A DNA stretch of 64,000 nt from Nereocystis luetkeana (taxonomy: Eukaryota; Sar; Phaeophyceae; Laminariales; Laminariaceae): NCBI GenBank assembly GCA_031213475.1, contig JARUPZ010000004.1:7286000-7349999 (forward strand), read 5' to 3'. How positions within the stretch are numbered: the first letter of the stretch is position 1; each line of letters begins with the position of its first letter. The notes beneath the pieces were generated by a model. That model was not told the DNA's origin, searched no databases, and was given only the letters and a program-made list of their open reading frames with translations. Shown one piece after another: positions 2,990 to 59,325 of this stretch. The position numbers and the translations under genes were made by a program.

Positions 2990-3640
2990 ATGGGCCTTCG
3001 ACGACAGCTTCTGCCCCAGGCCACCAGGGGAGTGTCTCCACACTTCCAGGCTTCGTCGCGGCCATCACAAGACTACTCCGATTTTTTCCTCGGGCCACCA
3101 GGAGAGCGTCTCTACTCTCCCCTCTGCTGCGAGCGTCTATCCGCAGGAGTTTCCACCGGTCGTAAAACGAACAGTATCTCAACACTTTCAGGTGTTACTA
3201 CCGGTCATCCGAGGCGTGCTCTTCTCTTCCTGGAGCCACCAAGGGACAGTCTCTACTCTCCCCCCTTCTACGAGCGTCTGCACGCAGGTGCTACTACAGG
3301 CCAACAGAGGCGTGCTCTTCTCTGCCTCGGGCCGCCAAGGGACAGTCTCTACTCTCCCCTCTGCTGCGATCGTCTGCACTCAGGTGCTACCACCGGGTCG
3401 TCAAAGGAACAGTGCCCCAACATTTTCAGGTGGTCCTATCGGTCATCAGAGGAGTGATCACCTCTTGCTCGGACCACCAGAGGAGACTCCCCACCCTCGC
3501 CACTGCTGCGAGCACCTACACTACGGGGTATTCCCACGGCTCATCAGAGGAGTACTCGTCTTCTCTTCCTCGCATCCACAGGGCAGAGTCTCTACTCTAC
3601 CCTGTCCTGCGAACCGCCGGGGTTCTGCCAGGGTCACAGG
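2990..3640 (+). repeat. Imperfect tandem repeat of about 96 bp in gag region
   Basis: A core containing CTCTACTCTCC and a CTGC-rich segment recurs five or more times; the best two units are exactly 96 bp apart (3216/3312 and 3244/3340), which is 32 codons, so the repeats stay in one frame. Translations give a 32-residue repeat in every forward frame and I could not tell which frame was once used. It lies directly upstream of the gag zinc-knuckle relic and probably belongs to the same retroelement. Confidence 0.6.
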
Positions 3641-3699: not shown

Positions 3700-4216
3700 T
3701 CTGTTGCACCACTACCTCTCCATCGCCCCCTTTTCCGATCTCCCCCCGCTTGGAGCCCCCTCTTCACTTCTTTCGCGCTAGCGATCGCCCTTTGCCCTTA
3801 TACCGGATAATGCCTCAACTACGGTGGACGGAGTCACTACGTACAAACGTACCAAGGCCCCTTTATTTACCCCGCCGGTGTTCTGGGTGAGCCCAACTCG
3901 AGGCGACACAACTCTGCCGGCAATTCCAGTAACAACCGCCGGCACAACTCCCATTCTAAGAACGAGCGCCCCCACGGCAACTCCGGCCGTGCTGCAGGCT
4001 CGCAGTGGACGAACTACTCTCCCAACAACCAACACTCGGGATAATTCCGCACCGCAGCTCACTCCCCCCTCCCCTCAAGGACCTCCCTCATCTGCCCTCA
4101 CCGTAACCGATCCCACAACCAAGACCCCCACTACCCCAGCGAACATGCGCCTCGGCCCTTCACAACACGGAGGTAACCAAAACTCCCGGCAACCGGGTAC
4201 CTTCCGTACTATCTAA
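3700..4216 (+). pseudogene. Ty3/gypsy gag relic with degenerate zinc knuckle
   Basis: At 3811-3852 one frame has the exact spacing of a retroviral-type CCHC zinc knuckle (C-x2-C-x4-H-x4-C), but the second and fourth ligands read Tyr (TAC) instead of Cys. Both losses are explained by single G-to-A changes from TGC. The following residues are rich in Asn, Arg, Ser and His, as expected for a nucleocapsid tail that binds RNA. The frame is interrupted soon after. Its place just before the NADAR, protease and reverse transcriptase segments on the same strand supports the call as gag. The capsid part further upstream is not recognisable. Confidence 0.55.
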
Positions 4217-4226
4217 CCAGCCGAGG

Positions 4227-5138
4227 GTGAAGAACCGCTCGCGACTTCACCAGCGGCACTACACGCGACCGTGCAGGGTACCTCTCTGGACCCTCGGAGA
4301 GAGTACTTTTCAGGAGCCGCCGGGTCTACTTACTCTCCCGACCCCTCCCCCTCTTTTCTCCCCGCTTCTAACCTATCTTCAATATCAACCCCTCTCCCTT
4401 CTTCAAGCGGTTGGTTTGAGGTGTGGGCAGGAGGACGTGGGCAAACCGAGCACTCCCTCAACGCTCCCCCCGGTGCCCCCAGCCGATGCGCGACGCCGCG
4501 CCTTACCTAACATTGCCGAAATGTCTACGGATCTTGCCAATCTTGTGGGCGACACGACAACCACGGCCAACAGCGGTATCCACTCCCTCTCAGGATCTTC
4601 TCCCCCAGGGGCATCCACTTTCAACTCATTTACGTCCTCTGATGAACGATGTTATCGGCGCACGTCAACCGGCGTCCGTCAAACCCGGACAGTACACACT
4701 TCGACCTCCGTTGATTCTGTAGGATCCCCTGGACTTGTAGCTGCCCGCCCCCTGCTGACCACACCACTCTCCCTGGGCCCAACGGACGGTTTTCCCGTGG
4801 ACTCATCCGCGGAAGACTCAATCAAGTCACCAAGATTATGCCAGGAGCCGCCTGTACCGACACCCACACCACGGTCACGGCCTACTACAGGTACCGCATG
4901 TTCTTCCGAGTTTCTCCCTCCTCCGCGTATGTTAAATGCTGTTGGCAGGGATTCCCAGGGTACCTCGTCACGAGCGTCTTGCCGTCACGTACATCCTCCC
5001 GGGGCCTCGTCACAATCGACCTTACCCCACACGTTTTCGGGGAGCGAAGCCGTCTCACCCACGTCTTCCCCGATAACGTCCCACAACAAATCCCCCTCTC
5101 CACTCCCCTCGACTTTGAGCCCCTCCCAAATCCTATTT
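4227..5138 (+). pseudogene. Pro/Ser/Thr-rich linker between gag and NADAR
   Basis: A frame open from 4227 to 5378 encodes mostly Pro, Ser and Thr with no domain I recognise until about 5130, where NADAR-like sequence begins in the same frame. Such low-complexity stretches commonly separate gag and pol in gypsy elements. I see no transmembrane segment and no cysteine pattern. Function unknown; it may be part of the original polyprotein or an open frame by composition, since the region has few A/T-rich codons and so few stops. Confidence 0.4.
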
Positions 5139-5580
5139 TTCTGGGATTATTCCTCGGTCTTTTCCCAGAGGTGTCCTTCGACGCCCACCGTAGACAACAA
5201 GCACTACAACTGTTCGGAACAAAACATGATGTCGGAAAAGGCCAAGCTTTTCATCGAAACAGCAACTCGCCGAAGATCATGTCCTCTCCGAATCCCGAAC
5301 TACAAAAACGCCTCGGCCGCTCCGTTTCCAATTTTACCCAAGAACGTTAGGTACAGCATCGGTACGACATCGTTTTAAAGGCCAACCACGCCAAGTGTTC
5401 GGCTCCCCCTTCACTACAACAACTCGTAGACACCGGCGACAAGTTCTTCGCCGAAGAAAGTCCTTACGACCTCGTCTGGGGCATCGGCTTCACGTGTGAC
5501 GATAGGCGAGCCTTACAACCTCCACTCTGGCCGGGACTCAACCTGTTGGGCGATATCCTGATGATGATCCGCCACCAGCT
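5139..5580 (+). pseudogene. NADAR (YbiA/DUF1768-type) domain inside gypsy polyprotein, broken
   Basis: NADAR domains are small alpha-helical enzymes of the YbiA family linked to ADP-ribose/NAD or riboflavin-intermediate metabolism, acting as N-glycosidases. The N-terminal half (5139-5255) shows FW...SVFSQ, then YNCSEQ followed by EKAKLF, matching the family core with its conserved Glu in SEQ. After a frameshift between about 5250 and 5275 the second half continues: KIM, a KRLGR motif, a position where the family has Trp but here TAG (5348-5350), then TGDKFF, SPYDLVWGIG and WPGLNLLG...IR. The order and spacing match a whole NADAR domain of about 145 residues. The C-terminal half is in the same uninterrupted frame as the downstream protease (open from 5351 to 6724), so it was part of the polyprotein. 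One frameshift and one nonsense codon make this copy inactive. Confidence 0.75.
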
Positions 5581-6724
5581 TGCCTTCCCCCCTCCACTCC
5601 CGCCCCCCCTTCGCGCCTCTCGCGTCTTACCCTCCAAAAAGGGGATTCACGAGTTCAGCGCAACCGTCCCAGCTCCTACACCGCACTCCACGCTGGACCA
5701 CCTACTGCCGCCTTTCCTTCCTGAAGCCACTCCTCCGCACGCATTGGTCTGTGCCATTTCGTCCGGAGCTGCTCTCCCTTCTGCGATCCCCTCCCTGATT
5801 GCCAAACACGGACCGGACCTCTCGAGCGGTATAGTTACCGTCGACGACGCCTCCTTTACGACCAGGATCAAGGTACACAGTGGACCCTCCGCATCCAACC
5901 GCTACGGCCTAGTAGCTCTCCTGGATACCGGCTCTCCCCAGACCTTCATCTCCGCTGAAGCTTGGGCCTGTATGAAGCGCCGCAACACCGCGTCGGACGC
6001 CTGTGAACGACACGCTTCCCTTCGTTCCTGGGGTGGTTTTTGTAACTCCGCTCCGTTTCTAACTTCGATTTCCGTCCGACTCAGCATCCAGTTCTTACAT
6101 AACAGCACTCCCTCCGCCGAACTCGCCGTATGGGCGTGCATCGTGCCACATGGGACTATGCAACATCCCGTTCCACTGGGACGTGACAGCTGGTTGCGGT
6201 TCGAACACCGCACGTACACCACCCTGCCTCGCCTCCCTTCGCGACCACTCTTTGGCGAGCTCTCCCTAGACACCCCTTACAAGGATGGCCTCTCCACGTT
6301 CGTTCACGACAACCACCTCGAGTTCGCCGGCGTTCACGCCGTCTCCCTTTCGGCTACCGTGTCCCTCGTTCCGTTAACTTCGTGCGGTCCTCCGGCCTTC
6401 CGGCACCCACCGGCCATTACCTCGTCGGCATGCTTCCCCGCGACGGTCTCTCCTCCGAAACAGAAATCTTCGTCGCCAACGGACACCAGAATATCCCGTT
6501 CTCGGGTTTCACCGATCTTGAACGAGGCGACCTTTTGGGGACCTCCCCTACTCCCCTCATACAAATTCCGGTCTCAGCACCGCAAGTTCTCCCCACGACG
6601 TCACCTCCAGCCTCCGCTGTTATCGACGTCCACTCCCTGCACGACAACATCCCCTTACATGACGACGATACACCTCCGGCTGACCCCCCCAAGACCCCTT
6701 GTGACCAACTCTTGGGACGTCTGA
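5581..6724 (+). pseudogene. Ty3/gypsy retropepsin-like aspartic protease
   Basis: The reading frame continues without a stop from the NADAR half. The hallmark LLDTGS motif is at about 5915-5935, with the catalytic Asp codon at 5924, followed by PQTFIS as in gypsy proteases. A VPLGRDSWL segment near 6172-6195 matches the conserved Gly-Arg-Asp flap/helix region near the end of the domain. Such proteases cut the gag-pol polyprotein as dimers inside virus-like particles. Frame is lost around 6380-6600, after which pol continues in another forward frame. With no intact gag or reverse transcriptase the element here is dead. Confidence 0.8.
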
Positions 6725-7035
6725 CTGTTGACCAACGAACCTGCTTTCTCCTCGTCTGGGACCAACTCCCGCTGCACCTTCGTGACGTCTCTTTTAACCA
6801 CCGCGGCTCTGGTTGGTTTCCTTCGGTCATCACGGCGCTAGGGAAAATTTCTTTGCGAGTTCCCCGACGTTGCGAGTTCCCCGACGTTTTCTCCACGTCC
6901 AAAACCGACTTCGGCTCGTGCCCCCTTATTCCGTTCAAGATTTCCATCCCCCCGGATAGTGCCCCCGTATGTTCCCGCCCTTACCGCATCAACCCTATCC
7001 TCGCCAAAAAGGCCGACGCTGTTGATTCCATCTAG
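6382..7035 (+). pseudogene. Ty3/gypsy reverse transcriptase, N-terminal piece only
   Basis: The frame encodes an Asp/Pro-rich spacer followed by the classic entry to the gypsy RT domain: FPDVFSTSK, DFGSC, a Pro-rich turn with PVCSRPYRINPIL, then KKADAV. These residues normally precede the palm motifs of reverse transcriptase. The domain stops abruptly at the TAG of 7033-7035, before any catalytic motif (no YxDD). A short direct duplication of GTTCCCCGACGTT (6857-6890) has doubled a few residues just before the FPDVF motif. From about 7024 the sequence switches to a repeat also present at 43.7-44.9 kb, so the element carries a large internal deletion or was joined to an LTR. Confidence 0.8.
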
Positions 7036-8100
7036 CACCTCACGTTACGCTTGTTTCACTAGGACACAATTCGCAACAACAAGTGTTATTGTACCTATCT
7101 TGCTGTTGCACCTCCTCCTTGCCTTTCCTTAGGGGTGGTCTTGGGTATTTGGGTCCTTCGGTATTTCGGTCTTTCGGTATTGCGATCTTTCTTCTTGTCT
7201 CTCTTTTTTTTTTTTTTTTCGTTTCCTACGTTTTCCTTCTCTAGCTCAACCGCTATCCCTACCAGAGACATCTCAGCCTCATTTACGAGGTGTGGAGGGG
7301 TCTATGATCTCATTTGGATGTTGGTTTTGAATAGCAGTATCTTCGACCCCCTATTTCGATTTTCGGATGTCTTAAATAGCCATCTCTGTATCGTCGTGGG
7401 ATCTGCATCTACGGCTATTCAGGGTGGGCTAATGTGATAGAGTACCTTGGTTTATAGTACACCAGATAGAGACCAACCATCAGTACGTATATAGACCAAC
7501 CGTCCGCAAATAAGATAGTTGTAATCGCAGAATGGATACGTACGTCTAGTATCGAAGTAGCCGAGGAGATAGAAATATACGTACGTACTATGATCATACG
7601 GAAGTCATGGGGTATCTCGCTACATAGCATCTTCAGAAAAGGATACTATGTTCAAATATAATTCCCGGGGTGTAACTACATAGCATCCATAGTGAGCCCA
7701 TACAGGATTCTCCGGGTGCTGCTCTATATAGTATCCTCATACAGGACTCATGGGGTGTTGCGCTACAAATGTAACTTCATACTTGAGGTTGTACGGGATG
7801 TCACGCTTGAAGTTGAGGGTGGCGCGTGCCCCCAGATGAGGGTGACGCGTGCCTCGTTGCCAGTAGATTATAGCCGGTTGAAGACAGATCATATTTCTGT
7901 CTTCAAAACCAGTAGCGTCCCACCCCCCCTCTATGCTCACTCGTCTCTTGCCCCCTTCGAGCAAGCCGCACACTCGTAATAAAAGAGAACATATCACGAA
8001 CTGCGTCTGAGTTAGACCAAGCACAGACACCTGAGTCACACTTCTTCTGCGGATGGATCATCATCACTGGTACCCTTGCCCCTGCCCTTCTCTCCTACAT
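7024..8100 (+). repeat. About 1.1-kb dispersed repeat, probable LTR, inverted partner at 43.7-44.9 kb
   Basis: This region aligns as the reverse complement of about 43,665-44,860, beginning at GTTGATTCCATCTAG and ending near 8100. It includes a poly-T stretch (7206-7220), a cluster of degenerate short tandem units that mention CTACATAGCATC (about 7590-7780), and a conserved stretch near 7815-7920. At the other locus the repeat directly follows a gypsy integrase and chromodomain, which suggests it is the 3' LTR of the same retroelement family. No open frame of note. Confidence 0.65.
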
Positions 8101-8318
8101 CACAATACATAATATCAAGATAAGCTATGCTGATGAGATTAACAGGAGAACATCAGAACCGTGAGTGTTTCGTTTGCTGGAATTAACGGATAACACGCCG
8201 TCCTTCTCAAGCAAGAAACACAACATGGGGAAAAGTTTCTTGCTTCTTGGTATATGTGTCCTGCCGATACTGTACGCCTTGAAGCTGGTGATTTACTGAT
8301 CACCGTCTGTTTGTTGTT
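8101..8318. other. Short spacer, nothing recognised
   Basis: Unique-looking sequence between the probable LTR and a SINE. No coding or structural signal was seen. Confidence 0.4.
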
Positions 8319-14010: not shown

Positions 14011-15936
14011 GCATCTTCCCAAGACAGGTGTTATAGGATGGCTATCATTGCAATGTCTTCGGCTTTCTATCGAACCTACCCATATGTGTATAAAGTCCCT
14101 CTGATGTGTGCCTGTGTGATAAAACAAAAAGTGCACATGCAAATACGCTCCGTCTTAAAAAGCGGGAATTATTTGGTCGAGATCGTAACGAGGAGTTCTT
14201 TCTGATTTTTTAGTATTTATTTACCGAAATTTCGGTAATTTCCTCTTGGAAAAAAAAACAAAGAAACACCGATAATTTCCTCTAGGAAAAAAAAAATATA
14301 TATATATTTATATATACCGAGATCGGGAGAATACCGAAAAAAAGCTTAAAAACAGCCCTCGTTATAAGATCAACCCTAAAAACATTACATTACGCAAAAG
14401 GACAAAAAACTGACGCTGTTTTGAGGGGTTATTCACTATGGGCCACTTCTGGGGTATGACAACGTATCACAAAAGGAGAGAAAAAAATCGGGCGAAAGCA
14501 TACCCTCTACAAGAGAAAACTAAACACTCGTAATACGTAACAAAGAAGGCTTGTGAAAATAGCCGCACTAGTAATACTGAGGCCCTTAGCATCTATCTAG
14601 GCTACGCGTATCATTGTTTTCGTTTTAGAATTATTGATTTTGCTTATTCCTCCCTTTTTTCTGGGGACTTATGTATGTGGGGACTGATCAGCTGCCACAC
14701 AGTCTAGCAGCAACACACTGTAGACTCGTGGTTATATAAAGCCTGCGTGAAGCCGAAGATCTCAGCTTTCCAATGCTACTTGAAGCAGGAAGTACGAGGT
14801 ATGTCGTTAAAGTGAGATCAGAGGAGGTGATAAATAATAGGTCATCCGAACATACTTTATTTTGAGGGGCGACATGATTCACCCTCACTCAGATCTCGTC
14901 GGAATTTAAGGCACTACTATGAATATCAATGATAGTAAGCATCTATGGGCAGCTTGGAGTGTGGCCCGTAGTATTGAGACACCTTCTTTGCGAGCATCTC
15001 CCTGCTCGTTCTTGAGATACGTGCGTCTACAAATTGACAGATTTATTTGCTCACCTTCCCACCTCTCTCTGTCTCCTCATGATCGGCAACCTCATACGTT
15101 TGGCTGCACGGAGCATCGTTGTTCTCAAGCCTTCGGCTTCCGTCGCTTTGTAGTGCTCTCGTACGATGCCATATACCTGGTAGTTGAAAGTTAGTGACAG
15201 ATAGAAGATGCAGATATTAATGGTACCTGGCAGTTTCTTCTGTCTTTGTAAAAATACTAAAAATGTCCTCGAAAACAATTGTTTCGAGAAGGTTCATGCT
15301 AAACAGTAGATCCGCTGGGCCTAGATAGAACCCTCCAGACAGCAGGCGCTGTAGTCAGCAACCACAAGTTGGTTAGTGGTGGGAACGGGGGAACTCAATA
15401 TTGTTGAAAGGATATACCCGCGGCCATGTTACTGCTGTATTTAATAGTTCAGTTTGCACATTGATTTTATCTTGTGTGCGCTTTCTCCGTCTCGTGAATT
15501 TTTAGGCAGCTGTTTTTTTATTGTTTGTCGGATCTTCCTAGGGTTCCAGCACATTTTTGTGTGACCACGGCCCTTTTCGTTTGACAAAAACAACAAACAA
15601 CAACTCAGGTTACCGCAACACTAGAGAAGGGCGGAGAAAATTCTTTGCGCACCGATTCACTCCACTCGAACTTCGGAAGTTAGTTGTTTGGGCAGGTGCT
15701 GCTGTGACAAGATCTGTGACTAAAACGTATTTGTTTTTAATGAAACGAATTGTGAGAAGAAATTCTGCATTTTCGCTATTAATAGTGTTCCGTATCGTAT
15801 CTGTTAATAAATGTCTGGATAAAATTTGTGATATTTTTGGGATATATATACAAGGTTCCCCTTCGGGGTGTAGGTATCTTGTAATCCCGGGGGCGTCGCA
15901 AGGCGAAAAGGGAGTCAGTCACAGGTAACACAAGAG
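14011..15936. other. Long intergenic stretch, no gene seen
   Basis: Holds A-rich runs with alternating AT at 14,290-14,315, two short repeats of CC(G/A)..AATTTCCTCT (14,230-14,290), and two ACCTGGTA/GGTACCTGG motifs near 15,175 and 15,222. The longest frame (15,557-15,928) lacks domains. I find nothing to annotate. Confidence 0.4.
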
Positions 15937-16283
15937 CCGGTCGCCCCGGTGGTTCAAGTGGTTAACCTCGAATTCTACTTGTTTGAGTCCTGGGTTCGAG
16001 CCCCAGGAGGGTCGGACTTTGACTTTATTTGCAAAAAAAAAAAAAGCATTCAATTGTTGAGAGCGCCTTGCAGCGTGGGTAGGCACAATTCGATGCGAGT
16101 CGACGAGGGAAGAAAAGGCTGAAATATTCTCGCGGTAAAAAAGTGAATGCACGTACCGTAGCGGGAAGGGAGGAGAAGAGCCTGCTATGTGACCCCGGAT
16201 CTGAGTTACGAGTTGGAAGGAGAGATAGAAGAAGATGTGCGAAGATAATTAATAGGATGAGATAAAAAACAAAAAAAAAACAC
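15937..16283 (+). mobile_element. tRNA-derived SINE, family 1, plus-strand copy
   Basis: The head is tRNA-like, with an A box TGGTTCAAGTGG at about 15,949 and a B box GGTTCGAGCCC at 15,993-16,003, spaced as in a polymerase III promoter. A family-specific body follows (GCAGCGTGGGTAGGC, AGTCGACGAGGGAAG, GTACCGTAGCGGGAAGG) and an A-rich 3' end at 16,262-16,283. It lies tail to tail with a minus-strand copy only about 25 bp away. Confidence 0.9.
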
Positions 16284-16308
16284 ACGTATATAGCTGAAAC
16301 CTGAGACT

Positions 16309-16664
16309 TTTTTTTTTTTGTTTTTTTTTTGTTTGTTTTTTTTTCCATCCCATTCATTATCTTCGCACATCTTCTTCTCTTTCTCCTTCCAACTCGTAAC
16401 TCAGATCCGGGGTCACATAGCAGGCTCTTCTCCCCCCTTCCCGCTACGGTACGTGCCTTCATTTTTATCGCGAGAAGATTTCAGCCTTTTCTTCCCTCGT
16501 CGACTCGCATCGAATTGTGCCTACCCACGCTGCAAGGCGCTCTCAACAATTGAATCCCTTTTATTTTTGCAAATAAGTCAAAGTCCGACCCTCCTAGGGC
16601 TCGAACCCAGGACTCAAACAAGTAGAATTCGAGGTTAACCACTTGAACCACCGGGGCGACCGGC
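16309..16664 (-). mobile_element. tRNA-derived SINE, family 1, minus-strand copy
   Basis: Read from 16,664 downward it has the same tRNA-like head, body and A-rich tail (long T runs on the plus strand at 16,309-16,345) as the neighbouring plus-strand copy. Together the two form an inverted repeat of about 730 bp. Confidence 0.9.
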
Positions 16665-17036
16665 TACATGGGTTAGCGTATTGCTCGAAGGAAAGAGTAC
16701 TTGATTAATATCGTAGCAGTCAGCAGGAACCGAGTACTACTCTTTCTGTGGAAATCGCTACATAGCATGCACGCGGTATACCATGGGTTGTGGGTTGACT
16801 ACTAGATACTGCTTGCTGTTACCATTCACCACTACCACCACTACGCAGATAGATGTATTATTACCGGTTTAGAAGGAGCATGCACTTTCCAAAATACTAC
16901 CTGGTACACTACTGCTGCTGTATAACTATACTAAGTACTACTGCTAGAGAATGACCAATCGATCATACAACGATACAGGCAATCTCATGTCATAGACAGA
17001 GAGGTCAAGTACCCATGTGGTACCATGGATGGGTTG
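16665..17036. other. Intergenic stretch, no gene seen
   Basis: Rich in CTGCTG and TAC trinucleotides; one ACCTGGTA motif near 16,900. No gene signal. Confidence 0.4.
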
Positions 17037-17324: not shown

Positions 17325-17384
17325 AGATATATACCACTGCCAGAAATGCACGTACTGTAAATAAATGCAGTATCCATGTAGAAA

Positions 17385-17824
17385 TGTTACGGTTCGGTTG
17401 ACCGTCTCAGGAGTTATGATGACATAGAGGCGTTTTCATATTGTAGCTCCGCTCCGGACGGAAGGTTTCATCCCCCTTCCGTCTCACTCAGTTCCCGCGA
17501 CCATCACCACGGTCACGGAACAAGCAATCACTTACCATCTAGCCATCTCCAGTTGGAGCCTCTTCACAGAAGAACCACAAGCTCGCCCTACTCTCCTGGA
17601 GACCTAGGAGCGCACCTCTCGACTCGGTCGGACTCAAGCTCTGCTCTGTCACTGAGGTTGGTCATTGATGTCTCGTCTTTGTGTTCTCCTTTTGGGTTAT
17701 GCATCTCTGAGTGGCAACCTGTGGTCCACAGATGCCACTCCTGCCAACTATTACAGAACCCTACATGTGTTGCCTTGTGACAATGACTTAAGACCTCAGC
17801 CCAGGTAGCCAGCTTTCCGTTTCA
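17385..17824 (+). repeat. 5' LTR (440 bp)
   Basis: Starts TGTTACGG, ends CCGTTTCA, and matches 26,770-27,209 base for base as far as I can see. A 75-codon frame occurs in both copies but is only a by-product of the repeat. Confidence 0.95.
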
Positions 17825-25459: not shown

Positions 25460-26380
25460 GTCGTGTTTCAACCGAAGAGGCCGTGTTGGTTCTTTTCCGT
25501 TTAATTCTCGTGGTTTTCGATTTTATTTATCCAGTGTTTCAACCGAAGAGGCCGTGTTGGTTCTTTTCCGTTTTGTTCTCGTGGTTTTCGATTTTATTTA
25601 TCCAGTGTTTCAACCGAAGAGGCCGTGTTGGTTCTTTTCCGTTTTGTTCTCGTGGTTTTCGATTTTATTTATCCAGTGTTTCAACCGAAGAGGCCGTGTT
25701 GGTTCTTTTCCGTTTTGTTCTCGTGGTTTTCGATTTTATTTATCCAGTGTTTCAACCGAAGAGGCCGTGTTGGTTCTTTTCCGTTTTGTTCTCGTGGTTT
25801 TCGATTTTATTTATCCAGTGTTTCAACCGAAGAGGCCGTGTTGGTTCTTTTCCGTTTTGTTCTCGTGGTTTTCGATTTTATTTATCCAGTGTTTCAACCG
25901 AAGAGGCCGTGTTGGTTCTTTTCCGTTTTGTTCTCGTGGTTTTCGATTTTATTTATCCAGTGTTTCAACCGAAGAGGCCGTGTTGGTTCTTTTCCGTTTT
26001 GTTCTCGTGGTTTTCGATTTTATTTATCCAGTGTTTCAACCGAAGAGGCCGTGTTGGTTCTTTTCCGTTTTGTTCTCGTGGTTTTCGATTTTATTTATCC
26101 AGTGTTTCAACCGAAGAGGCCGTGTTGGTTCTTTTCCGTTTTGTTCTCGTGGTTTTCGATTTTATTTATCCAGTGTTTCAACCGAAGAGGCCGTGTTGGT
26201 TCTTTTCCGTTTTGTTCTCGTGGTTTTCGATTTTATTTATCCAGTGTTTCAACCGAAGAGGCCGTGTTGGTTCTTTTCCGTTTTGTTCTCGTGGTTTTCG
26301 ATTTTATTTATCCAGTGTTTCAACCGAAGAGGCCGTGTTGGTTCTTTTCCGTTTTGTTCTCGTGGTTTTCGATTTAGTCT
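25460..26380 (+). repeat. Minisatellite, 71 bp x about 13, nearly identical units
   Basis: CCAGTGTTTCAACCGAAGAG recurs every 71 bp from 25,531 to 26,312 (12 sites), with one more partial unit in front. Units are identical or nearly so. Because 71 is not a multiple of 3, a reading frame cycles through all three phases, and the unit has no stop in any forward phase; three long overlapping frames (up to 353 codons) result. I regard these as artefacts unless expression is shown. Confidence 0.95.
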
Positions 26381-26769
26381 TGCCGTGTAGGCTAGCCTAC
26401 AGTTTTAACCGAGGAGGCGGAGTTGCCTTCTCTGTTGTGTTCGATTTTCGTTGAATTGTTGAGGACGCAATAGAAGCGATTTATATGCTTAGGCGTTAGG
26501 GGACACTGCGCTTATTTCATCGCTGAATGAGCGTGGGGGGACTTTAGCCATGGAATAGTGGTCGGGCAACCAAACACGCAGTGAAAAAGCAAGGGTAGGG
26601 GTTTTTCTCGGGGATTTCCCTTTGATGGCCTTTGCGATTTCGGTTTGGTTGTTTATCCCTGAGGCCGTTATTTGTGTTAAAGGGCTTTGCGGCTCTTTAA
26701 ACTTGGTTATAGTCACAAGATTGCGATAGCATAATGCTTATTCCGTCATTCGCATTATGCTAGGGGGCA
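26381..26769 (+). other. 3' leader of the LTR element with hairpin and polypurine tract
   Basis: A perfect 9-bp inverted repeat GCATAATGC / GCATTATGC (26,729-26,737 and 26,752-26,760) ends one base before the purine tract AGGGGGCA (26,762-26,769) that adjoins the right LTR and would prime plus-strand DNA synthesis. No coding domain. Confidence 0.7.
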
Positions 26770-27209
26770 TGTTACGGTTCGGTTGACCGTCTCAGGAGTT
26801 ATGATGACATAGAGGCGTTTTCATATTGTAGCTCCGCTCCGGACGGAAGGTTTCATCCCCCTTCCGTCTCACTCAGTTCCCGCGACCATCACCACGGTCA
26901 CGGAACAAGCAATCACTTACCATCTAGCCATCTCCAGTTGGAGCCTCTTCACAGAAGAACCACAAGCTCGCCCTACTCTCCTGGAGACCTAGGAGCGCAC
27001 CTCTCGACTCGGTCGGACTCAAGCTCTGCTCTGTCACTGAGGTTGGTCATTGATGTCTCGTCTTTGTGTTCTCCTTTTGGGTTATGCATCTCTGAGTGGC
27101 AACCTGTGGTCCACAGATGCCACTCCTGCCAACTATTACAGAACCCTACATGTGTTGCCTTGTGACAATGACTTAAGACCTCAGCCCAGGTAGCCAGCTT
27201 TCCGTTTCA
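26770..27209 (+). repeat. 3' LTR (440 bp)
   Basis: Same sequence as 17,385-17,824; followed by GAAA, the right copy of the target duplication. Confidence 0.95.
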
Positions 27210-39275: not shown

Positions 39276-39480
39276 TTTTTTTTTTTGTTTTTTTTTTTGT
39301 TTTTTTTCCATCCCATTTATTATCTTCGCACATCTTCTTCTCTCTCTCCTTCCAACTCGAAACTCAGATCCGGGGTCACATAGCAGGCTCTTCTCCCCCC
39401 TTCCCGCTACGGTACGTGCCTTCATTTTTATCGCGAGAAGATTTCAGCCTTTTCTTCCCTCGTCGACTCGCATCGAATTG
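39276..39480 (-). mobile_element. SINE family 1, truncated copy
   Basis: A long T tract on the plus strand (A-rich tail), then the complement of the SINE body up to GACTCGCATCGAATTGT, where it stops before the tRNA head. It abuts the C tract that ends the LINE. Confidence 0.85.
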
Positions 39481-40266
39481 TCCCATAGCCATCTCCAAAG
39501 CCCGCTCCTCGGGTTATACAAAAATATTTCCTGCAACACGATGTATTTGAAACCGTGAAAGAGGAACACAAATGCCCTGAGGTAGACGAGTGTCCTGCGC
39601 ATCGTTTGAGTATTGGTACTAGCTGTCGAACAGCTAGTAATACTAGAAGTACCGCGGTGCAGAGCCCTGAAATGTGTTTTCAAGTGTAAGCACTATCTAG
39701 AGTATTGAACCCGAAAAACGTATCCGCAGCACCGAACCTCGAAAAATAACTAGCACTCGCCGTATCTGAGGTACAGAAAGCCTGGAATACCATGCGGGAG
39801 CACTCGATCTGCCTCCTGCATTTTCTGTCGAAAACACTTTACTATACCCCCAGAGTATTGGAAGCATGTGTGTAACCTATCATACAACCTAGAGCACTCA
39901 CCCTACACATGTCATTAAAGGTGCGGCGCTATTGAGCTCACCTTTGGACGACAGACAGGTATCGTTCAGCTGACGGATTCCATTTTTAAGACACCCGGTG
40001 GCGGTTTTGTTTGGGTGATCCTTCGAATTTTAGATATAACCCATAAGAAGATAGTTCATGAAAGATACACGCCGAGCAACGTTTTAAGAAGGTGGATATG
40101 ATATTCTGGTACGACGGCACTTTATAACCGCAACGACCCATTCCAACGTAAAACTTGGGTACTCTATGTGACAACGTTACCCGACAATCAAATTGATGAC
40201 GTTAACATGTGGTGAATCTCAAACGCGTGTGTCGCTTGACCCTCCAATCCCTCAATCTCCGTTCAG
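39481..40266 (+). other. Last part of proposed intron 2
   Basis: No gene domain. It ends in a pyrimidine-rich stretch and CAG (CCTCCAATCCCTCAATCTCCGTTCAG at 40,241-40,266 in outline), a strong splice-acceptor candidate. Confidence 0.5.
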
Positions 40267-43664: not shown

Positions 43665-44860
43665 TTATGTGATGTGGGCTAGAGAAGGCACGGGCAAGGG
43701 TACCAGTGATGATGATCCACAGAAGAAGTGTGACACAGGTGTCTGTGCTTGGCCAAACTCTGACGCAGTTCGTGAGATATTCTCTTTTAATATGAGTGTG
43801 CGGCTTGCTCGAAGGGGGCAATAGACGAGTGAGCAAGGAGCGGGGGTGGGACGCTGCTGGGTTTTGAAGACAGAAATATGATCTGTCTTCCACCGGCTAT
43901 AATCTACTGGCAAGGAGGCACGCGTCACCCTCATCTGGGGGCACGCGCCACCCTTCAATCGTGCCATCCCGTAAAACCTCAAGTAGGAAGGTACTACTAT
44001 GTAGTGAAACACCCGGTGAGTCCTGTATGAGGATAATATATAGAGCAGCACCCGGAGAATCCTGTATGGGCTCACTTTGAATGCTATGTAGTTACACCCC
44101 GGGAATTCTGTATGAACATAGCATCCTTTTCTGAAGATGCTATGTAGCGAGATACTCCATGACTTCCGTATGAGCATAGCACCCTATATGAAGATACTCT
44201 TCAGCGCAACATCCCGTGAGTTCTGTATGAGCATAATATCCTGTATGAAGATACTATGCAGCGCAGCACCCCGTAAGTTCTGTATGAACATAGTACGTAT
44301 ATTTCTATCTCCTCGGCTACTTCGATATTTGACGTACGTATCCATTCTGCGATTACAACTATCTCATTTGCTGACGGTTGGTCTGTATATATACTGATGG
44401 TTGGTCTATATACGTACTGATGGTTCGTCTCTACCTGGTGTACTATGCACCAAGGTACTCTATCACATTAGCCCCCCCTGAATAGCCGTAGATGAAGATC
44501 CCACGACGATACAGAGATGGCTACTTAGACATCCGAAAATCAAAAGAGGGGGTCGAAGATACTGCTATTCAAAACCAACAGCCAAATAAGACCATAGACC
44601 AACCCACACCTCGTAAATGAGGCTGAGATGTCTCTGGTAGGGATAGCGGTTGAGCTAGAGAAGGAAAACATAGGAAACGAAAGACAAGAAGAAAACGAGA
44701 GACAAGAAGAAAGACCAAAAGACCCAAATACCAAAAGACCACCCCTAAGGAAAGGCAAAAAGGAGGTGCAACAGCAAGATAGGTACAATCACACTTTTTG
44801 TGCGAATTGTGTCCTAGTGAAACAAGCGGAACGTGAGGTTCTAGATGGAATCAACCCACA
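43665..44860 (-). repeat. Probable LTR of gypsy family, inverted partner of 7.0-8.1 kb
   Basis: Reverse complement aligns with 7,024-8,100. It contains a local tandem array of about 60-bp units (GAATTCTGTATGAACATAGCAT and variants, about 44,100-44,300), partly lost in the other copy. In minus orientation it directly follows the integrase/chromodomain remnant at 44,938-46,345, so a 3' LTR is the natural reading; its precise ends are not resolved. A C-to-G-rich purine tract (complement of TCCCCCGACC near 44,936) may be the polypurine tract. Confidence 0.65.
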
Positions 44861-44937
44861 AGGCGAATGCGTGTCCCAGACAGCGACACAGAGAGTATCC
44901 CGTCCCGAAACTAGTATACGGCAATCTAACGCATCCC

Positions 44938-46345
44938 CCGACCATCAGCTACTGTTAACTGATCGGGCGGATAAGTGGTGATGGGGGGGTGCATTGGCAT
45001 TACGCAGTACACCGCGGGCAAGTCCTCCGGCCTGATGACGCTGAAGGCACCAGGATCCGTGGGTCACTCTCCGTGAAGTGGTGTAAAGGGACGGAAGTAG
45101 AGTAATCTTGATGGGGCCCGGGTTGTCTAGGAAGCGGACCAAGTAGGAGTTAGTGGAGGAGATGTCGGTCGAGGCGCGGGGGGCAACTTTGCCCAACCAC
45201 CAAAGGCCATCGCGGGCCTTGTATCAGAGGTGCGCCCCGGCGGGTAGAGGTGAAGAGCTGAAGCGGCGAAGCCACAGAGTGCGCGGTACGTGGCGGTACC
45301 CGGGGGTGAGGAAGATGTCGCCCCGGGACCGCGGTAGTTCGCGGTGAGCGGCCCCGATGCGGATCTGGCGGTATAGCCGGTTGGTTTGAGGATGCTGGGA
45401 AGGGGTGCCCGATCAATAGCGAAGGATGTGGGGTCGGTGAAGCTGCAGGTCTCGTTCGTGTTCCCAAGAAGGACTAAGGAGTCCGGACAAATGTGTTTTG
45501 TACATTTCGGCGAGGACGCCTCCCCGGCCACGAGCGAGTTGGTTTCCCGATATCTGATCGACCTCGAGGCGTTCGGGCGGTTGGGGGATGTCGTCGAAGG
45601 TGACGTGGAAGGGCGGGGACTTAGTGGAGAAGGGGCTGACCACGTACTTAGTGGGGTCGGTCGGTAGGTGTTTGGGGAGATCGTCGATGTCGTCGGGGTT
45701 CCGGCAGGGCTTGCAGCGGAGAAACGGAGACGCGGTGCTTGGAGTCCCGCCCAGGCATGTCCGAGAGAAGGTCGAAGTACAGGAGCTTATCGTGAAGGGG
45801 CCGTCCATCCGGAACGGCAGAGGCTGGTGCTGAGCCCACGGCAAAAATCTTGAACGGGCCAATCCAGTTGAAGGAGAGTTTGATCTTGAAAACGGTGGCG
45901 TCGGTGCCTTTCTTGGCGCATTGGCGAATAGTAGCTGCGGTGTTGTAGATCCATGCCCATCCGCCGACATAGAACAGAGGGGAAAGGCGGAGGGCGTCGA
46001 TGATGGGGGCGTTGCGGCGGTCGAGTCGTGAGACGTAGACCGCGTGGAGTTCCCGTACGGCGCGGTAGGCGCGTTGCTGGCGAGCAAGGGCGAGGTCAAT
46101 GTAAGCGAGCTGGTCCCGGTTGAAGCTTTAATATCCGCCGATGTTGGGAGAGTCGAACACGGTGAGGGGGAGGCGAGGTAGCCGGCCAATGTGTACTTCG
46201 TTGGGGGCCAGCCCGGTCGCGGCGCTGACGGAGTTATTGTAGGCGCTTTCGACGTGAGGAAGATGCAGGTCCCAATCGTTTTGCAGTTCGTTGCCGACCA
46301 TGGCGAGCATCAGGGCTATGGTGTGGTTAACGCGGTTATCGTTTA
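44938..46345 (-). pseudogene. Ty3/gypsy integrase end with chromodomain-like tail (broken)
   Basis: Read from 46,345 down: VNHT, LAMVGNELQNDW, AYNNSVSAATGLAPNE and RLPRLPLTVFD, the usual end of the gypsy integrase core. A long frame (46,189-45,413) follows in another phase and ends with LEVDQISGNQL, RGRGG, YKTHLSGLLSPSWEHE, which has the layout of a chromodomain (beta strands, then aromatic W-E). A further conserved segment with a DNPGPIK motif comes after it (45,135-45,110). Integrases with such tails target chromatin marks. The catalytic D,D,E region is missing: the piece is truncated at about 46,345. Frameshifts make it inactive. Same family as 56.9-59.3 kb. Confidence 0.8.
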
Positions 46346-49006: not shown

Positions 49007-50845
49007 TGATGAACCCAGGAAGATGACAGAGAGAGGGGGAGATTGGAGCACAAGGGCATGAGCTCTGGCGGGGACACGAGAGATCGGTACCCAGGGAATT
49101 TGTTTGGCCCCGAGCACCTGGGCCCGAGTTTTCTCCCGGGCGAAATGAGGCCCAAGCATCGGGGCCCGAGTTTTTCCCTGGTTGGGATCAGTGTCTCTGC
49201 CCGAGCTTCTCCTTGATGGAATATGATGGGTGGCCAAATATCGAGCCCCGAGTCCTGTCCGGGATGATGGAGTCTGATGGGTGCCAACAGCGAGGGATAT
49301 ACGTAGAAACTACGATAGAGTACATATATTCGGGTAGCACTACTGCTGTTTATAGCTGTGACCATGCATAACGTATCAGGAAACAGTAGTCACGGCAGGT
49401 AGCCACCATCACAGACTCGCGACAAGGCAGAACCAGAAAATAAAAGAAGGCCACGAATCTCTCCGTCCTCACCCTCGATTTGTGTTTCGTTCTCGCGCAC
49501 GCCTTGACGATTGTTTGCGGCCGGCCTTCGCCTCAGGTGTAACTCTCGTTTGTTTGCGGCCGTTCTTCGCCTCAGGCGTGACTCTCGAAATTTTATATTT
49601 TCGGCCCCGCACATCTCGTCTGTGTTGTTTTGTGCGGCCGGTATTTTTCTTGCTGTCCGTTACTCCTCGAGCAAACAAATGGGGGGGGTAGGCTGGGTCG
49701 CCCTGATGGACTTCTAATTTAAGTCGCACACGACAACGATAGAAAACTCGCGCAGCGCATGCCGTAATAGGGTGGACTACCGATGTAGGAACTTGGGCAT
49801 GGACGCAGCGAACTACCGGTAGCACGTGTAACAAGACACATACCAGCGACGAGCTGCCCGGGGCGTTCGGAAAGACATGGAATCTGATTATTAAAAGTGT
49901 GCATAGCAAATTGTGGGCTCGGCTGTATTCATTTAGACTACCATGGCAATACGTATGTGTACGACTCAAATAATCAGCCCAACCTGAGCGGCAGCAGTAT
50001 TTTCGTGGTCACATGTCACATGTAACTGCTGTTGTTGAACTATACCTCGCTGCGGGTATCGAACCAGGGAGTACCTTTGAATATCGTTGCGGGAGGAGCA
50101 CCTTCCGTAGATGGTTGTAAGTTTGAAGTTGTCCGTAGGAACCGATAACCTACCATGCCCCGAGCACTGAGTAATAGCTGCCTGGAGCAAAGGTGCCTCA
50201 ACTTGAAAATTACACAGAAAAGACGTATCCCCGTCTACAATACCATCAGTAGTCTATACACTACGCAGTTTCACACGATGCTCAAAAAGATGAGAAGATG
50301 GCATATATTATACGACGACTTGCATTGCCGTACGTACACGACTAAGAATATGTATATTAACGATAGTACATGTAATGTGGAAAAAAGACAGGGAATCATA
50401 CTGCTACTACTACTGCTGTACTCTGTACCTGCAGTTTCTAATTGTTTTCTTCCCCGAACGGGGTGAGCTCTTGATACACGGTTAAGCATACAGGGGGGGT
50501 GGCTCGCAGTATGTATGATTTTGACAACATCAACAAAGGGCGTGTATTGGCTATCTATAATACTACACACTCCCGTACAACTGTAGGCCGTATGGCAAAA
50601 TCCCTAGGTACCATTTCGTCCACCTCTCTTTCCATCTTTTCGAGTCATGTAAACGAGTTAAAAAGTGACATATCAGGATATACCACACACGCCGTATGTA
50701 CAGGAGTATCTGGTATTGATACGGGGCATACTACGGTGAGGAAGCTGGGTAGAAATTACGATTTTTAGTCGAAGGCCACATATCATACGTGGAGGATGTA
50801 TCCACAGTAGATACAGTATTCATACCACTATCAATATAACTGTTC
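49007..50845. other. Long intergenic stretch, no gene seen
   Basis: 49,110-49,250 has a repeated GGGCCCGAGTTTT(C/T)(T/C)C motif (three units of about 55 bp). A short repeat with GCGGCCG.CTTCGCCTCAGG(C/T)GT is at 49,515-49,580. Remaining frames carry no domain. Confidence 0.4.
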
Positions 50846-51189
50846 ATTTTTTTTTTTTTTTTCTCATCCCATTTATTATCTTCGCATATCTTCTTCTCTC
50901 TCTCCTTCCAACTCGTAACTCAGATCCGGGGTCACATAGTAGTAGGCTCTTCTCCCCCCTTCCCGCTACGGTACGTGCCTTCATTTTTTATCGCGAGAAG
51001 ATTTCAGCATTTTCTTCCCTCGTCGACTCGCATCGAATTGTGCCTACCCACGCTGCAAGGCGCTCTCAACAATTGAATCCTTTCTTCTTTTTGCAAATAA
51101 AGTCAAAGTCCGACCCACCTGGGGCTCGAACCCAGGACTCAAACAAGTAGAATTCGAGGTTAACCACTTGAACCACCGGGGCGACCGGC
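50846..51189 (-). mobile_element. tRNA-derived SINE, family 1, full-length copy
   Basis: T tract at 50,846-50,862 (A-rich tail), complete body, and tRNA head at 51,100-51,189 with an intact B box complement GGGGCTCGAACCC and A box complement CCACTTGAACCA. Confidence 0.9.
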
Positions 51190-51725
51190 TACTATGGTCC
51201 CAGAATGCTACATGGGACTGAAGGTCGCACGACAAAAGCTCTCTAGATCCTTGGGTCCATCGTTCCTCTTGCTTTCACAAGCGTGGAGACGTTTAACTTT
51301 GGCCCCACACACCCCTACACCCGTACGGGATGAGTGTCCCCTACTATCGGAGCAAAGTACTGTTGTGGGGAAGCCGTTCAGCTGTGCAGTGTACGGCAGG
51401 TTACGATTCGGGGTTAAATGAAAGCTTTGTTGAAACAACTGAGGGCACGCAACGAGAGTCATAGCGGGTTGTTATGGTCTCGAAGTACCCGATACGTTGG
51501 AATTCCACTTGTTTCACCCGTTCGGGTCTTCTCACCCGGTACGTTGTCATTTCCCTGGCTTTCCCTCTGGTCTTTGTCTGACGCCAAGGGGCTGGGCATA
51601 GTTGACGAAAGCAGGGCGGAGACGGCAGTCTGGGTAGCAAGGTACCAGGCGGATTAGCAGGGAGAACCTGGCTATACTACTCGTACCACAAGCTGCTGCC
51701 GCCACCTGGAAGGTGCTTTGGGCTT
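51190..51725. other. Intergenic stretch, no gene assigned
   Basis: Two frames of 75-84 codons at 51,194-51,657 read rather protein-like but match nothing known to me. Confidence 0.35.
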
Positions 51726-53395: not shown

Positions 53396-54147
53396 ACGTG
53401 CAGAGTACGAGTGGAACACATTCGACCGCAATATCTTATTCATCCCGACTGCTGTAAAGGGTGTATACTATCTTCAGCATACCGAGCTGGTATCACATCA
53501 CACTGGATACGGCAGGCACGACGCACGCATTCCGTCCAAGAGCAGAGAGAGATAGCAATGCGACACCAACGAAGAAATAAAACCTATCAACCTAGTGGCA
53601 CCGGGCATATTAGTAGTGGTAGTTACAAACCCCCCGGCACTAGATTATCGACTACCAGGATGTCAACACAACAGTTTGTATAACAGAATCGGGGATCACA
53701 CACATAAATAGTTGCAATCCCGTGATCACAGCGCCCGAACACTGGGGGATGCGTGAACAGTTACTTAATAGTATCATACATATGCACGAATATTGGAAAA
53801 CCGTGAAAACAGGCGCTTTTTTACATTTGTGCCGAAAGGACCTCGGAGCGTTGGCCTCTATCCGGAGCGCTTTACCTGTAGCAAGGGTGACTGCTCTTCC
53901 AGAGCAAATACATGCATCCTAAGCGGTGGATACGAGATACACAATGCAAATCAAACTGAGAGGAGAAAACCTGGTAGTTTCCGATAGGAAAACGAAGCCC
54001 CTCCCCAGCGCGCATACTCATGCGCCGTCTTAGTCGCTGACGCAGTGAACGGAGAATCAAGCGAGCTTGACTTTTTGTTCAAGTATCTGACACGGTTCCC
54101 AATGACGACTGGGCATCTTCACCGTTTGAGTACTGCACTGCTGTACA
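53396..54147. other. Intergenic stretch, no gene seen
   Basis: Short frames without domains. Confidence 0.35.
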
Positions 54148-54442
54148 TGTTTGTTTTTTTTTGTTTTTTTTCTCATCCCATTTATTATCTTCGCCCGTCT
54201 TCTTCTCTCTCTCCTTCCAACTCGTAACTCAGATCCGGGGTCACATAGCAGGCGCTTCTCCCCCCTTCCCGCTGACGGTACGTGCCTTCATTTTTATCGC
54301 GAGAATATTGCAACCTTTTCTTCCCTCGTCGACTCGCATCGAATTGTGCCTACCCACGCAGCAAGGCGCTCTCAACAATTGAATCCTTTTTTTATTTTTA
54401 TTTTTGCAAATAAAGTCAAAGTCCGACCCCCCTGGGGCTCGA
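54148..54442 (-). mobile_element. SINE family 1, head-truncated copy
   Basis: T tract then complete body; the sequence stops inside the B box complement (GGGGCTCGAAC), so the first 45 bp of the tRNA head are missing. Confidence 0.85.
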
Positions 54443-56886: not shown

Positions 56887-59325
56887 TATGGCTTCGGGTC
56901 CGGCGGGACCCCTAGACCATCCGCCCGGCGTGCTAACACCCCACCGCGAGTTCCACGGTTGCAACCGCCCGCACCCGTTGTTATGGCCTCGGCTCCTGCT
57001 TCCTCGTCGATTCCGACCGTACCCATCCCGTCCGACCGCGACCGCGCCGAGCTGGCGGGAACTCCTTTCGTACGGCTTCCGCCACTAACTGACGCACTGC
57101 CCTTCACCACGGTCGACTTGAACGCCATCGACGCAGCTGCCGAGTTCCAGTTCGGTGATTCCGCAGCGTGGTATTCGCACACCGACTTGGCTCGGAAAGA
57201 ACAGGCCGAGCCGGTGAGCAACGCCACCATGGGCTACCCTGTACTTGATCGACCGGAATTTTCACCACCCGACCTTTTGTCGTGTTTCCCTTCCCACTAG
57301 CGCCCTCCCTTTTGAAGGTTCAAGAGCTGGTTAAGGAAGGCCACTTGCACACCACCGACGCGTGCATCGGTCTACTAGTCCGATAACTCTTCCCCATTTT
57401 CGTGTCGAACACGCAACGTCCGGTGGGTCGAGCGGCCTGTTTATTGAACGCCGAGGCAATTGTTATTTATGTTCCGCTGTTCATGCACCCCTGGATCATG
57501 CAGGCTTGCCATTCCACAGCTTCCTGCCACCTAGGAACCACGCGCACATTGCGTATGCTCGAACGTGTATACAGGTAGATCAGTATACGCATCTGCGCCC
57601 AGCGGGTGATTACGCAACTGCTTGGAGTGCCAGGAACGGAAAACGTCACGGCAGACGGTCTGGTGGCCACCATCACGTTGCCCTAGCCAGAAGGGCCCGG
57701 CAATGCCGTCATCGACTATTTCGGCCCTCTGCCGGTGACGCCTCGAGGAAACATCTACATCTTGCTTTTCGCGGATCGTTGCAGCCGCCGTCACAGAGGA
57801 AGAATTCACCCCTGAAGGAACGGCTAACATTCTCATCAACCCTTATACTCCCCTCTGGGGGTGCCCGCGCGGCAGCCACGAGGCCCTCCAGTTCTGCTCC
57901 AAGCTCTCGCACGCCGTTTACCAACTTCTCGGGGTTCGGCAAATTGTCACCAGCTCCTATTGCCATAACAGCAACGGTAGGGTGGAACGTGTAAGCCACA
58001 CTAAATCGCAGATGCTGGCAATGGTCGTCAACGAGCCCCGAACCAACTAGGAAGAACAGCTCCCTACGGTCTGATTTGCGTACAACAATTCCGTCAACGC
58101 CGCTACGGGTTTAACTCCCCACGAGGCCCGTATGGGTCGGCCCCCACGCCTCCCTCTCACGATTTTCGGGCGTGCGGAAGTCTTCGGAAACCAGAGCTTG
58201 ATCCGCGACCACCTCGCCTGCTGTTGTTGGCGACGGACTGCCAGCAGCGCGCGTACGACATCGCTCCCGAACACCACACCGTCACTGTAGCTTGTGTGAA
58301 CCGCCGCATATCCGCCCTCTCCGACGCCCTGCGTCCAGTTCCCAAATTCAACGTTGGCGGCTGGACGTGGGTGTACAATACGGAGGAAACCCTCCACCAG
58401 GGTGCGAAGCTCGACACGGACGACAAAGTCATCAAGGCCAAACTCTCACTCCACTGGACGAGCCCCTGCAAAGTTCTCGCAGTTCGCCCCTGCTCCTCAG
58501 CGGGCACCCCGGACGGATCTCCTCTCGGTGCAAAGCTCCTGTATTCGGATCTTCCTTCCGATATACCCCGGCGCTGATGCTTGCCGGCGCGTATCAGTTC
58601 AACGCTGTAAGCCCTGTGCGAACCCCCACGACCGTTACGACATGTCGACGTATCTGCCAGTGGGGCTGCCGCAATACGTGCTCCACACCTTCTCCAAGAA
58701 ATCCCCTCTGTACCACGCCACCCCGGACGATGTTTCGACCCCTTTCCAACGACTCGAAGTGGAAAAGATAACCGGATATCAATCGGTTAGAAGTCGCGGT
58801 GGCGCCATCGCGGTGATGTACCAGACGCACTGGACAGGACTACTCCGTCCATCATGGGAACGGGAAAGGGCCTTCAGTTTTCTCGCTACGCAATTTTGCG
58901 CTACTGGGCTAGCACCCCGAATCAGCACCGCCAACGTGACCGCCTGCCCCGCCGAATGAGAATCGGCGCGACACAACGGGAGCTTTCTCGAGGTAACGGC
59001 GAGGGGTTTCTGGCACTCGTCTATGTCTGCGTATCGCACGCCGACTGGTGTTGCCGATACGGCAACACCGTGGCCCACGTTTTGTACAAGAGCGACGACG
59101 GTCTGTGGTGGGGAAAATCGACGCGCCTACACCAACGGATGGAGTTTATTTGTGTCGAGTTTGGACGACCCGGGACCGATCAAGCAGTCTCTTTCTCCGG
59201 CGCGCTACTTGACTTTGACGAGAGCTGTACGAAGTTCTTGGTGCCATCAAATGAACTTGGCTAGCGTCTTTGGACGGGGGGTCCAGCGTAACGTAGATGA
59301 GTATCGAGGCGCCGCCGTGGATAGC
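56887..59325 (+). pseudogene. Decayed Ty3/gypsy pol: integrase, chromodomain and tail
   Basis: Multiple frames are needed. An N-terminal part (56,959-57,300) is Pro/Asp-rich. Further on: an HHCC-like segment near 57,480-57,580, then VIDYFGPLPVTPRGN and YILLFADRCSRR (about 57,700-57,770), which holds the first catalytic Asp region; VERV (about 57,975) marks the place of the catalytic Glu; AYNNSVNAATGLTPHEA and RPPRLPLTIFGR (58,080-58,165) end the core. A chromodomain-like tail (LEVEKITGY, SRGGAI, YQTHWTGLLRPSWERE) is at 58,756-58,870, and a conserved DDPGPIK segment at about 59,165-59,185. Many stops and frameshifts; no reverse transcriptase. It is the same family as 44.9-46.3 kb. Confidence 0.75.

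Follow-up and report, generated by a model that had tools for sequence, protein, structure and literature searches.

A Ty3/gypsy clade carrying a YbiA-family NADAR domain in Pol, with a candidate role in cleaning element RNA or cDNA

According to the accessible part of one report, NADAR enzymes, including one from an oomycete, remove ADP-ribose from guanine (PMC11543638). The same text gives E. coli YbiA, a NADAR relative, as acting on riboflavin intermediates, so that sequence does not fix the substrate of a family member (PMC11543638). Fusion of such a domain to a retroelement has a precedent in Ectocarpus, where a NADAR-Gypsy lineage (Gypsy-12_Ec32 and relatives) was described in 2025, as far as the available text of that paper goes (PMC12477816). 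A sequence-only reading of the locus studied here had raised the fusion as possibly undescribed, a view that this publication overtakes; our literature search gave, among the matches listed, no further report of a NADAR retroelement. The NADAR-Gypsy fusion is therefore known already, and what is new here, the supplements of that paper aside, is evidence on the active site and on selection, the scale of the phenomenon and a natural loss. By description in the available portions of two papers, NADAR domains are also carried by RNA-virus polyproteins and by ORF1 of Crassostrea Tx1 LINEs, which are unrelated elements (PMC12477816, PMC9503650).

The window analysed here is the whole 64,000-nucleotide stretch of Nereocystis luetkeana DNA at positions 7286000-7349999 of contig C4. 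It contains a dead, internally deleted Ty3/gypsy copy that belongs to a NADAR-carrying clade. Two relatives serve for comparison below, L003, which lacks NADAR, and L178, in which NADAR is open. The features, in window coordinates, are as follows.

3742..4216, plus strand: C-terminal remnant of gag, ending ...PGTFRTI-stop (tblastn of the L003 gag ORF onto 3742-4035, 31%, E 5e-5)
4217..5141, plus strand: low-complexity N-terminal portion of Pol, read in frame 3 from 4398 on (tblastn of L178 onto 4398-5276, 86%)
5142..5581, plus strand: NADAR domain of the YbiA family, split (PF08719 in three ORFs; L178 alignment at 82-86%)
5582..5803, plus strand: NADAR-protease linker, with little conservation among relatives (33 pairs; mean identity 0.26, NADAR 0.55)
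5804..6241, plus strand: retropepsin-like protease with a DTGS motif (64% over 150 of 150 residues to the L003 protease)
6373..7023, plus strand: part of Pol between protease and reverse transcriptase (RT), in a frame other than that of the protease (tblastn of L003 Pol 582-793, 60%, frame 1)
7021..7432, plus strand: internal 3′ tail, brought next to the Pol remnant by a deletion within the element (7021-7673 against 44855-44209 on the minus strand, 84%)
7433..8104, plus strand: probable 3′ LTR, starting TGTGATA (start motif as in the LTRs of a full copy; the repeat match stops at 8104)
43668..46337, minus strand: second partial copy, with the C-terminal part of integrase, the 3′ tail and a probable LTR starting at 44467 (repeat match and tblastn)
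57172..59310, plus strand: third partial copy, diverged, with integrase and C-terminal Pol (tblastn of L003 Pol 1454-2186, 39-44%)

The NADAR domain at 5142-5581 is whole, though split by one frameshift and one stop. Pfam NADAR (PF08719) matches a 5′ piece in ORF 4107-5378 (E 0.0025, profile positions 3-58), a middle piece in ORF 4715-5350 (E 0.084, profile 47-83) and a last piece in ORF 5351-6724 on the plus strand (E 7.1e-16, profile 87-162), the last alone passing the Pfam cut-off by itself. NCBIfam TIGR02464 matches the first and last pieces with E-values of 1.2e-4 and 4.1e-13, both under its cut-off. ORFs 4715-5350 and 5351-6724 have a common frame and are parted by the stop; ORF 4107-5378 lies in the other frame. 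Because the three overlapping pieces run in order over the stretch, and because L178 matches all of it at the identity given above, we regard the domain as complete. The pieces keep E43, K50, R93, E125, D130 and W133, and the ORF list shows R79 in the middle piece; the W89 column is left uncovered by the pieces.

These matches, found in both frame segments, confirm the motif order of a whole NADAR/YbiA domain upstream of a retropepsin that had been read from the letters alone. The accompanying count of one frameshift and one stop holds for the NADAR domain but not for the copy, which has a further frameshift after the protease, a mere remnant of gag, and a deletion from RT to integrase. Likewise, the open frame 5351-6724 does join the C-terminal half of NADAR to the protease, but it tracks relatives only to about 6400, the frame of the family resuming in another frame at 6373-7023. 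The proposed placement between gag and retropepsin is right as to the protease, which comes next, but gag is represented by its C-terminal remnant only.

The gag end of that remnant is common to L003 and to copies elsewhere in the window's genome, and the stretch that matches the L003 protease lies at 7291803-7292240 of the contig. Homology to Pol ends at 7023, and RT, RNase H and integrase are absent from the window copy; the Pfam RT match in L003 Pol starts at 817, past the window's Pol remnant. From 7021 onward the sequence is the 3′ tail common to 44855-43668 on the minus strand, at 84-90%. Position 8104 is the end of the repeat match, from which the true end of the probable 3′ LTR may differ, and no 5′ LTR matching it was found within the window. 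The same broken NADAR-protease locus occurs three times on the contig, near 7.21, 7.29 and 7.39 Mb, spaced about 80 and 99 kb. The sister loci near 7.21 and 7.39 Mb are 99.0% and 99.2% identical to the window copy over 1401 bases and have the same stop, and the locus was probably multiplied by segmental duplication after it had been broken.

Other repeats were observed in the window. Tandem-like repeats, 96-142 bases apart and 67-86% alike, lie at 3088-3612, just upstream of the gag remnant, and a tandem array with a period of 71 bases and nearly identical units occupies 25463-26375. Identical 441-base direct copies are found at 17384-17824 and 26769-27209, 9.4 kb apart. A dispersed repeat, about 89-96% identical, occurs at 15935-16671, 39276-39484, 50841-51197 and 54144-54447, and forms an inverted pair at 15935-16277 and 16329-16671.

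A search of the genome (465 Mb, 1987 contigs) revealed the scale of the fusion. It returned 778 NADAR candidates, and all of the best 150, which were scored, exceeded the Pfam cut-off; 48 of these lay in frames of at least 2000 aa, with a stop inside the match in 1 of the 48. The corresponding protease search returned 977 candidates, and among the 150 scored, 98 had a listed NADAR 400-1500 nt upstream on the same strand, the span asked for in pairing. Spacing was 711, 714, 720 or 723 nt start to start in at least 83 of the 98 pairs, and NADAR and protease had equal open-frame length in 78. For proteases in frames of at least 2000 aa, 48 of 50 had a listed NADAR upstream, 46 with equal frame length. 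The NADAR list holds the best 150 of 778 candidates, so the 52 proteases without a listed NADAR are no sign of its absence; indeed, inspection of 6 of the 8 such proteases in long frames (at least 1000 aa) revealed NADAR in all 6, whole in 3 and split between frames or in two parts in 3. We also inspected 90 of the 150 NADAR matches, namely the best 30 and 60 picked by hand. NADAR, linker and protease were open in a single frame at 45 of these loci; the protease was broken or in another frame at 29, a stop was present at 12, and 4 had no protease match on that strand, in 1 case because the extracted stretch ended too soon.

Domain order was examined in long polyproteins. Pfam places NADAR, RT, RNase H and integrase in that order in P0186, P0188 and P0201, the last from Ectocarpus, and a protease profile built here puts the protease after NADAR in P0186 and P0188. 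The order protease, RT, RNase H, integrase holds in the relatives L003, P0186 and P0188 (Pfam, with the protease by profile or tblastn). Eight of 10 proteins scanned have a NADAR match over profile 2-162 or 2-163, with E from 3.5e-47 to 2.8e-42; the other two, P0025 and P0043, have an RT match only. The fusion of NADAR and protease thus proved real, recurring in many genome copies and across the gypsy clade, and the intact copies whose existence the sequence-only reading had left to be checked are present in the numbers given above. Two other origins for the arrangement were considered and rejected: a chance or chimeric artefact is ruled out by the two sister copies on the contig and by the many relatives with the same fusion, and a stand-alone host gene beside a gypsy element by the equal open-frame lengths, taken as the same frame. 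A copy on contig C1 is bounded by LTRs of 488 bases with 99.0% identity (3 mismatches, 1 gap); GATG flanks it on both sides as read by eye, and a check for five-base repeats found none. The identity of these LTRs and the many near-identical copies suggest recent movement in this genome. In its position before the protease the domain resembles the dUTPase of betaretroviruses, a small nucleotide-related enzyme of a kind that has been lost in some lineages; fold and chemistry differ.

The active site of the oomycete NADAR is given, in the part of the report available, as E43, K50, R79, W89, R93, E125, D130 and W133 (PMC11543638). All eight residues are identical in 45 of 45 open copies, and each is kept in 93-96 of 96 rows comprising 90 loci and 6 proteins. 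Clustering at 90% DNA identity reduces the open copies to 4 clusters, one with 36 members, so they are not independent tests. Glutamate, rather than Asp or His, at position 125 assigns the domain to the YbiA family. The closest solved chain in a sequence search was PDB 8BAU, the YbiA-family NADAR of Phytophthora nicotianae (E 2.7e-17), whose eight named residues are those conserved here, and an AlphaFold2 model of an open-copy NADAR has a mean pLDDT of 95; the fold is accordingly a predicted one, assigned from this match and model. In contrast to the present domain, which is part of Pol, 8BAU has an N-terminal extension and an insertion and was solved alone, by the accessible account (PMC11543638).

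One explanation for a conserved domain of this kind is that NADAR persists for the sake of binding, to RNA or ADP-ribose, or of folding, its catalysis being irrelevant. Stramenopile gypsy elements have chromatin readers as other accessory domains, in the available text of the Ectocarpus paper (PMC12477816), which fits such a role, but retention of the eight residues, E125 included, in every open copy makes it improbable. The Ectocarpus paper, in the same portion, has putative chromodomains (PMC12477816), whereas none was found by Pfam at E 0.01 in the five polyproteins searched here (L003, P0186, P0188, P0201 and P0206), where a diverged one could escape the profile.

Selection on the domain was evaluated at several depths. 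The 6 pairs among the 4 clusters are mostly at synonymous saturation (pS 0.74-0.82). Where rates were not computable, pN is 0.29-0.40 in NADAR, 0.26-0.32 in the protease and 0.38-0.55 in the linker; where they were, dN/dS is 0.18 and 0.24 in NADAR, 0.14 and 0.18 in the protease and between 0.37 and 0.82 in the linker. In 86 pairs with dS of 1-3, NADAR has a dN/dS of 0.18 and the protease one of 0.16, the linker being saturated, and over 293 close pairs, which are not independent, dN/dS is 0.37, 0.85 and 0.76 for NADAR, linker and protease. Mean identity over 33 pairs of 9 long polyproteins, from which the linker value listed above is taken, is 0.55 for NADAR, 0.50 for the protease and 0.63 for RT. 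By these sequence comparisons NADAR appears about as conserved as the protease and far more so than the linker. Within the 36-copy cluster the signal is weak: the shared NADAR variants (n=17) comprise 9 nonsynonymous and 8 synonymous changes (pN/pS 0.33, Fisher p 0.036), shared variants in linker and protease give p 1, and private variants give p 0.19-0.29 (NADAR 0.29). Purifying selection on the NADAR part, which had been proposed as a check, is thus visible between clusters at a protease-like level and faint within the large one. A captured gene carried along without function would be compatible with the dead window copy and with the open Pol of NADAR-less L003; a near-constant position in many copies and in deep branches, protease-like conservation, the substitution rates between clusters and the 33-pair identities all speak against it, and we consider such a passenger very improbable indeed.

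Relatives beyond this genome place the fusion in a wider clade. The window ORF is matched by 63 proteins, one with the source label 'Undpi1', which we take to be Undaria, and a polyprotein search found 153 proteins, the best 120 of which were listed. Ectocarpus sp. CCAP 1310/34 is the named source of P0198, P0201, P0206 and P0209, with NADAR in P0201 and P0206. In an RT tree of 41 rows, 27 fall in one clade with support 100/100, P0201 and P0206 among them; the published Ectocarpus lineage is likened to ours through these two proteins and its description, rather than through the Gypsy-12_Ec32 sequence. The window copy is without RT, and its genome is represented in the tree by copy L182. The clade comprises 14 NADAR carriers, 12 rows scored unknown and 1 without NADAR. 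Most unknown rows start within or after the protease or contain no protease; P0211, with half a NADAR, and P0207, with a weak fragment, were scored the same way, as were P0198 and P0203, in which sequence other than NADAR precedes a cut protease (partial profile match). That their own protease is cut suggests that P0198 and P0203 are chimeric gene models; if they are truly NADAR-less, there were more losses. P0205, which lacks NADAR in the 264 residues ahead of its protease, branches outside the clade, as does P0200, scored unknown for NADAR, and the P0205/P0200 fork is weak (91/37). Members lacking the domain or carrying it elsewhere would speak against a family trait: the 6 of 6 long-frame loci checked have it, but L003 and P0205 do not, and P0198 and P0203 have none before the cut protease.

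L003 is the NADAR-less member inside the clade. Its Pol is open over 2196 aa, and a search at a threshold as loose as E 10 gave no NADAR match in it. On either side of the absent domain its sequence aligns with a copy in the window's genome, the proteases of the two being 82% identical. Judged from this alignment, L003 represents a secondary, clean loss, and its open Pol indicates that NADAR is dispensable at least there. The contig of L003 (JALZUV010000217.1) is filed under a Rickettsiales MAG, and its gypsy gag-pol probably reflects eukaryotic contamination. The simplest history of the clade would be one gain of NADAR at or before the base of the 27 rows, followed by at least one loss.

Bacteria supply the closest cellular NADARs, with identity reaching about 55% at most among the matches listed (P0142 aside). 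For stand-alone bacterial YbiA/NADAR proteins, one search gave 38-53% identity (80 of 93 loci kept, L003 aside) and a second gave 42-55%, among the matches listed (best 120 of 516; P0142 aside). They are free proteins in no retroelement; here the domain is fused in Pol. In the available text of the Ectocarpus paper, too, the outside NADARs nearest to its lineage are mostly bacterial (PMC12477816). Viral contigs yielded two NADAR loci, in ORFs of 215 and 260 aa, neither in a polyprotein. P0142, a 127-residue partial NADAR named Marinobacter alexandrii on a contig of 1985 bases, sits among the gypsy NADARs in a tree and is a likely contaminant of the bacterial entry under which it is filed.

Separate captures of NADAR by subfamilies were also considered. 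A first NADAR tree, which counted P0142 as cellular, rejected a single gypsy clade (p-AU 0.01), but a second (72 rows, P0142 and the long-branched L040 dropped, other sampling) did not (p-AU 0.755); the two sets differ in further rows, so the change is not attributable to P0142 and L040 alone. A FastTree of 160 rows gave support 0 on this question. Separate captures were set aside, the single origin resting on the RT tree. Across elements, NADAR distances track RT distances moderately (Spearman 0.55, against 0.64 for protease-RT and 0.39 for NADAR-protease).

How the domain is produced bears on what it may do. In L003 (5128-5136, CAR) and in 7 of 30 copies inspected in the window's genome (L083, L085, L089, L090, L096, L107 and L111), gag and pol share a frame, and one TGA with CA after it separates them; the nearest upstream stop is of another kind in the other 23, and the window copy has TAA at 4214-4216. 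From this shared frame and stop context, Pol is probably made by readthrough of the gag stop, in small amounts, and then packaged. We propose a single capture of NADAR from a YbiA gene of bacterial type, no later than the base of the NADAR-bearing branches. As a part of Pol, the domain would be produced at a low level along with RT and integrase and be packaged together with these, and so would meet the RNA template and the new cDNA. There it could strip ADP-ribose, or a similar ribosyl adduct, from guanine of the element's RNA or cDNA. Retroviral dUTPases are house-cleaning enzymes, and by analogy adduct removal would keep the template copyable; the adduct may be a host defence mark or ordinary damage, either being possible. 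We put a probability of about 0.5 on this reading, namely a gypsy clade with a once-captured YbiA-family NADAR in Pol that is packaged to clean element RNA or cDNA.

The domain might instead handle ribosyl or ADP-ribose products that arise as the RNA intermediate is processed, as proposed by the Ectocarpus authors (PMC12477816) and raised for RNA viruses (PMC9503650), each in the accessible text. With no partner (KptA, 2H enzyme or ligase) found by Pfam in L003 Pol and 4 other polyproteins, we regard such a processing role as unlikely. A possible but tentative alternative is counter-defence, in which NADAR would remove marks that host ADP-ribosyltransferases place on the RNA, cDNA or capsid proteins of retroelements. 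The available portions of two papers are in keeping with it: NADARs reverse guanine ADP-ribosylation, including an oomycete enzyme with the same active-site residues (PMC11543638), and RNA-virus NADAR and Macro domains have been proposed mainly to target host ADP-ribosylation (PMC9503650). The genome also has one exon-sized PARP match (33 bits, E 1.1e-5; the search control matched in 0 of 14 genomes). On the other side, no enzyme of the host is known here to modify retroelement nucleic acid, the Pol of L003 is open without NADAR, and DarT gave 0 matches in the genome, in a search that diverged or intron-split genes could escape (control matched in 1 of 14 genomes); neither the DarT nor the PARP result decides the matter. 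Still more specific, and doubtful on present evidence, is a reading in which the clade carries an active guanine de-ADP-ribosylase packaged with RT since hosts ADP-ribosylate retroelement nucleic acid as a defence, and L003 lost the enzyme once that defence was no longer met. If true, this would be a eukaryotic counterpart of the phage DarT/NADAR arms race.

Returning to the proposed cleaning role, the capture known from Ectocarpus emerges here as widespread, abundant and under selection, with its active site intact, and NADAR function is for these reasons directly testable; L003, a close relative that is naturally NADAR-less, provides the matched comparison. Should element RNA or cDNA prove to be its substrate, NADAR would represent a new type of accessory enzyme in retroelements and would indicate that nucleic-acid ADP-ribosylation is of importance in algae.
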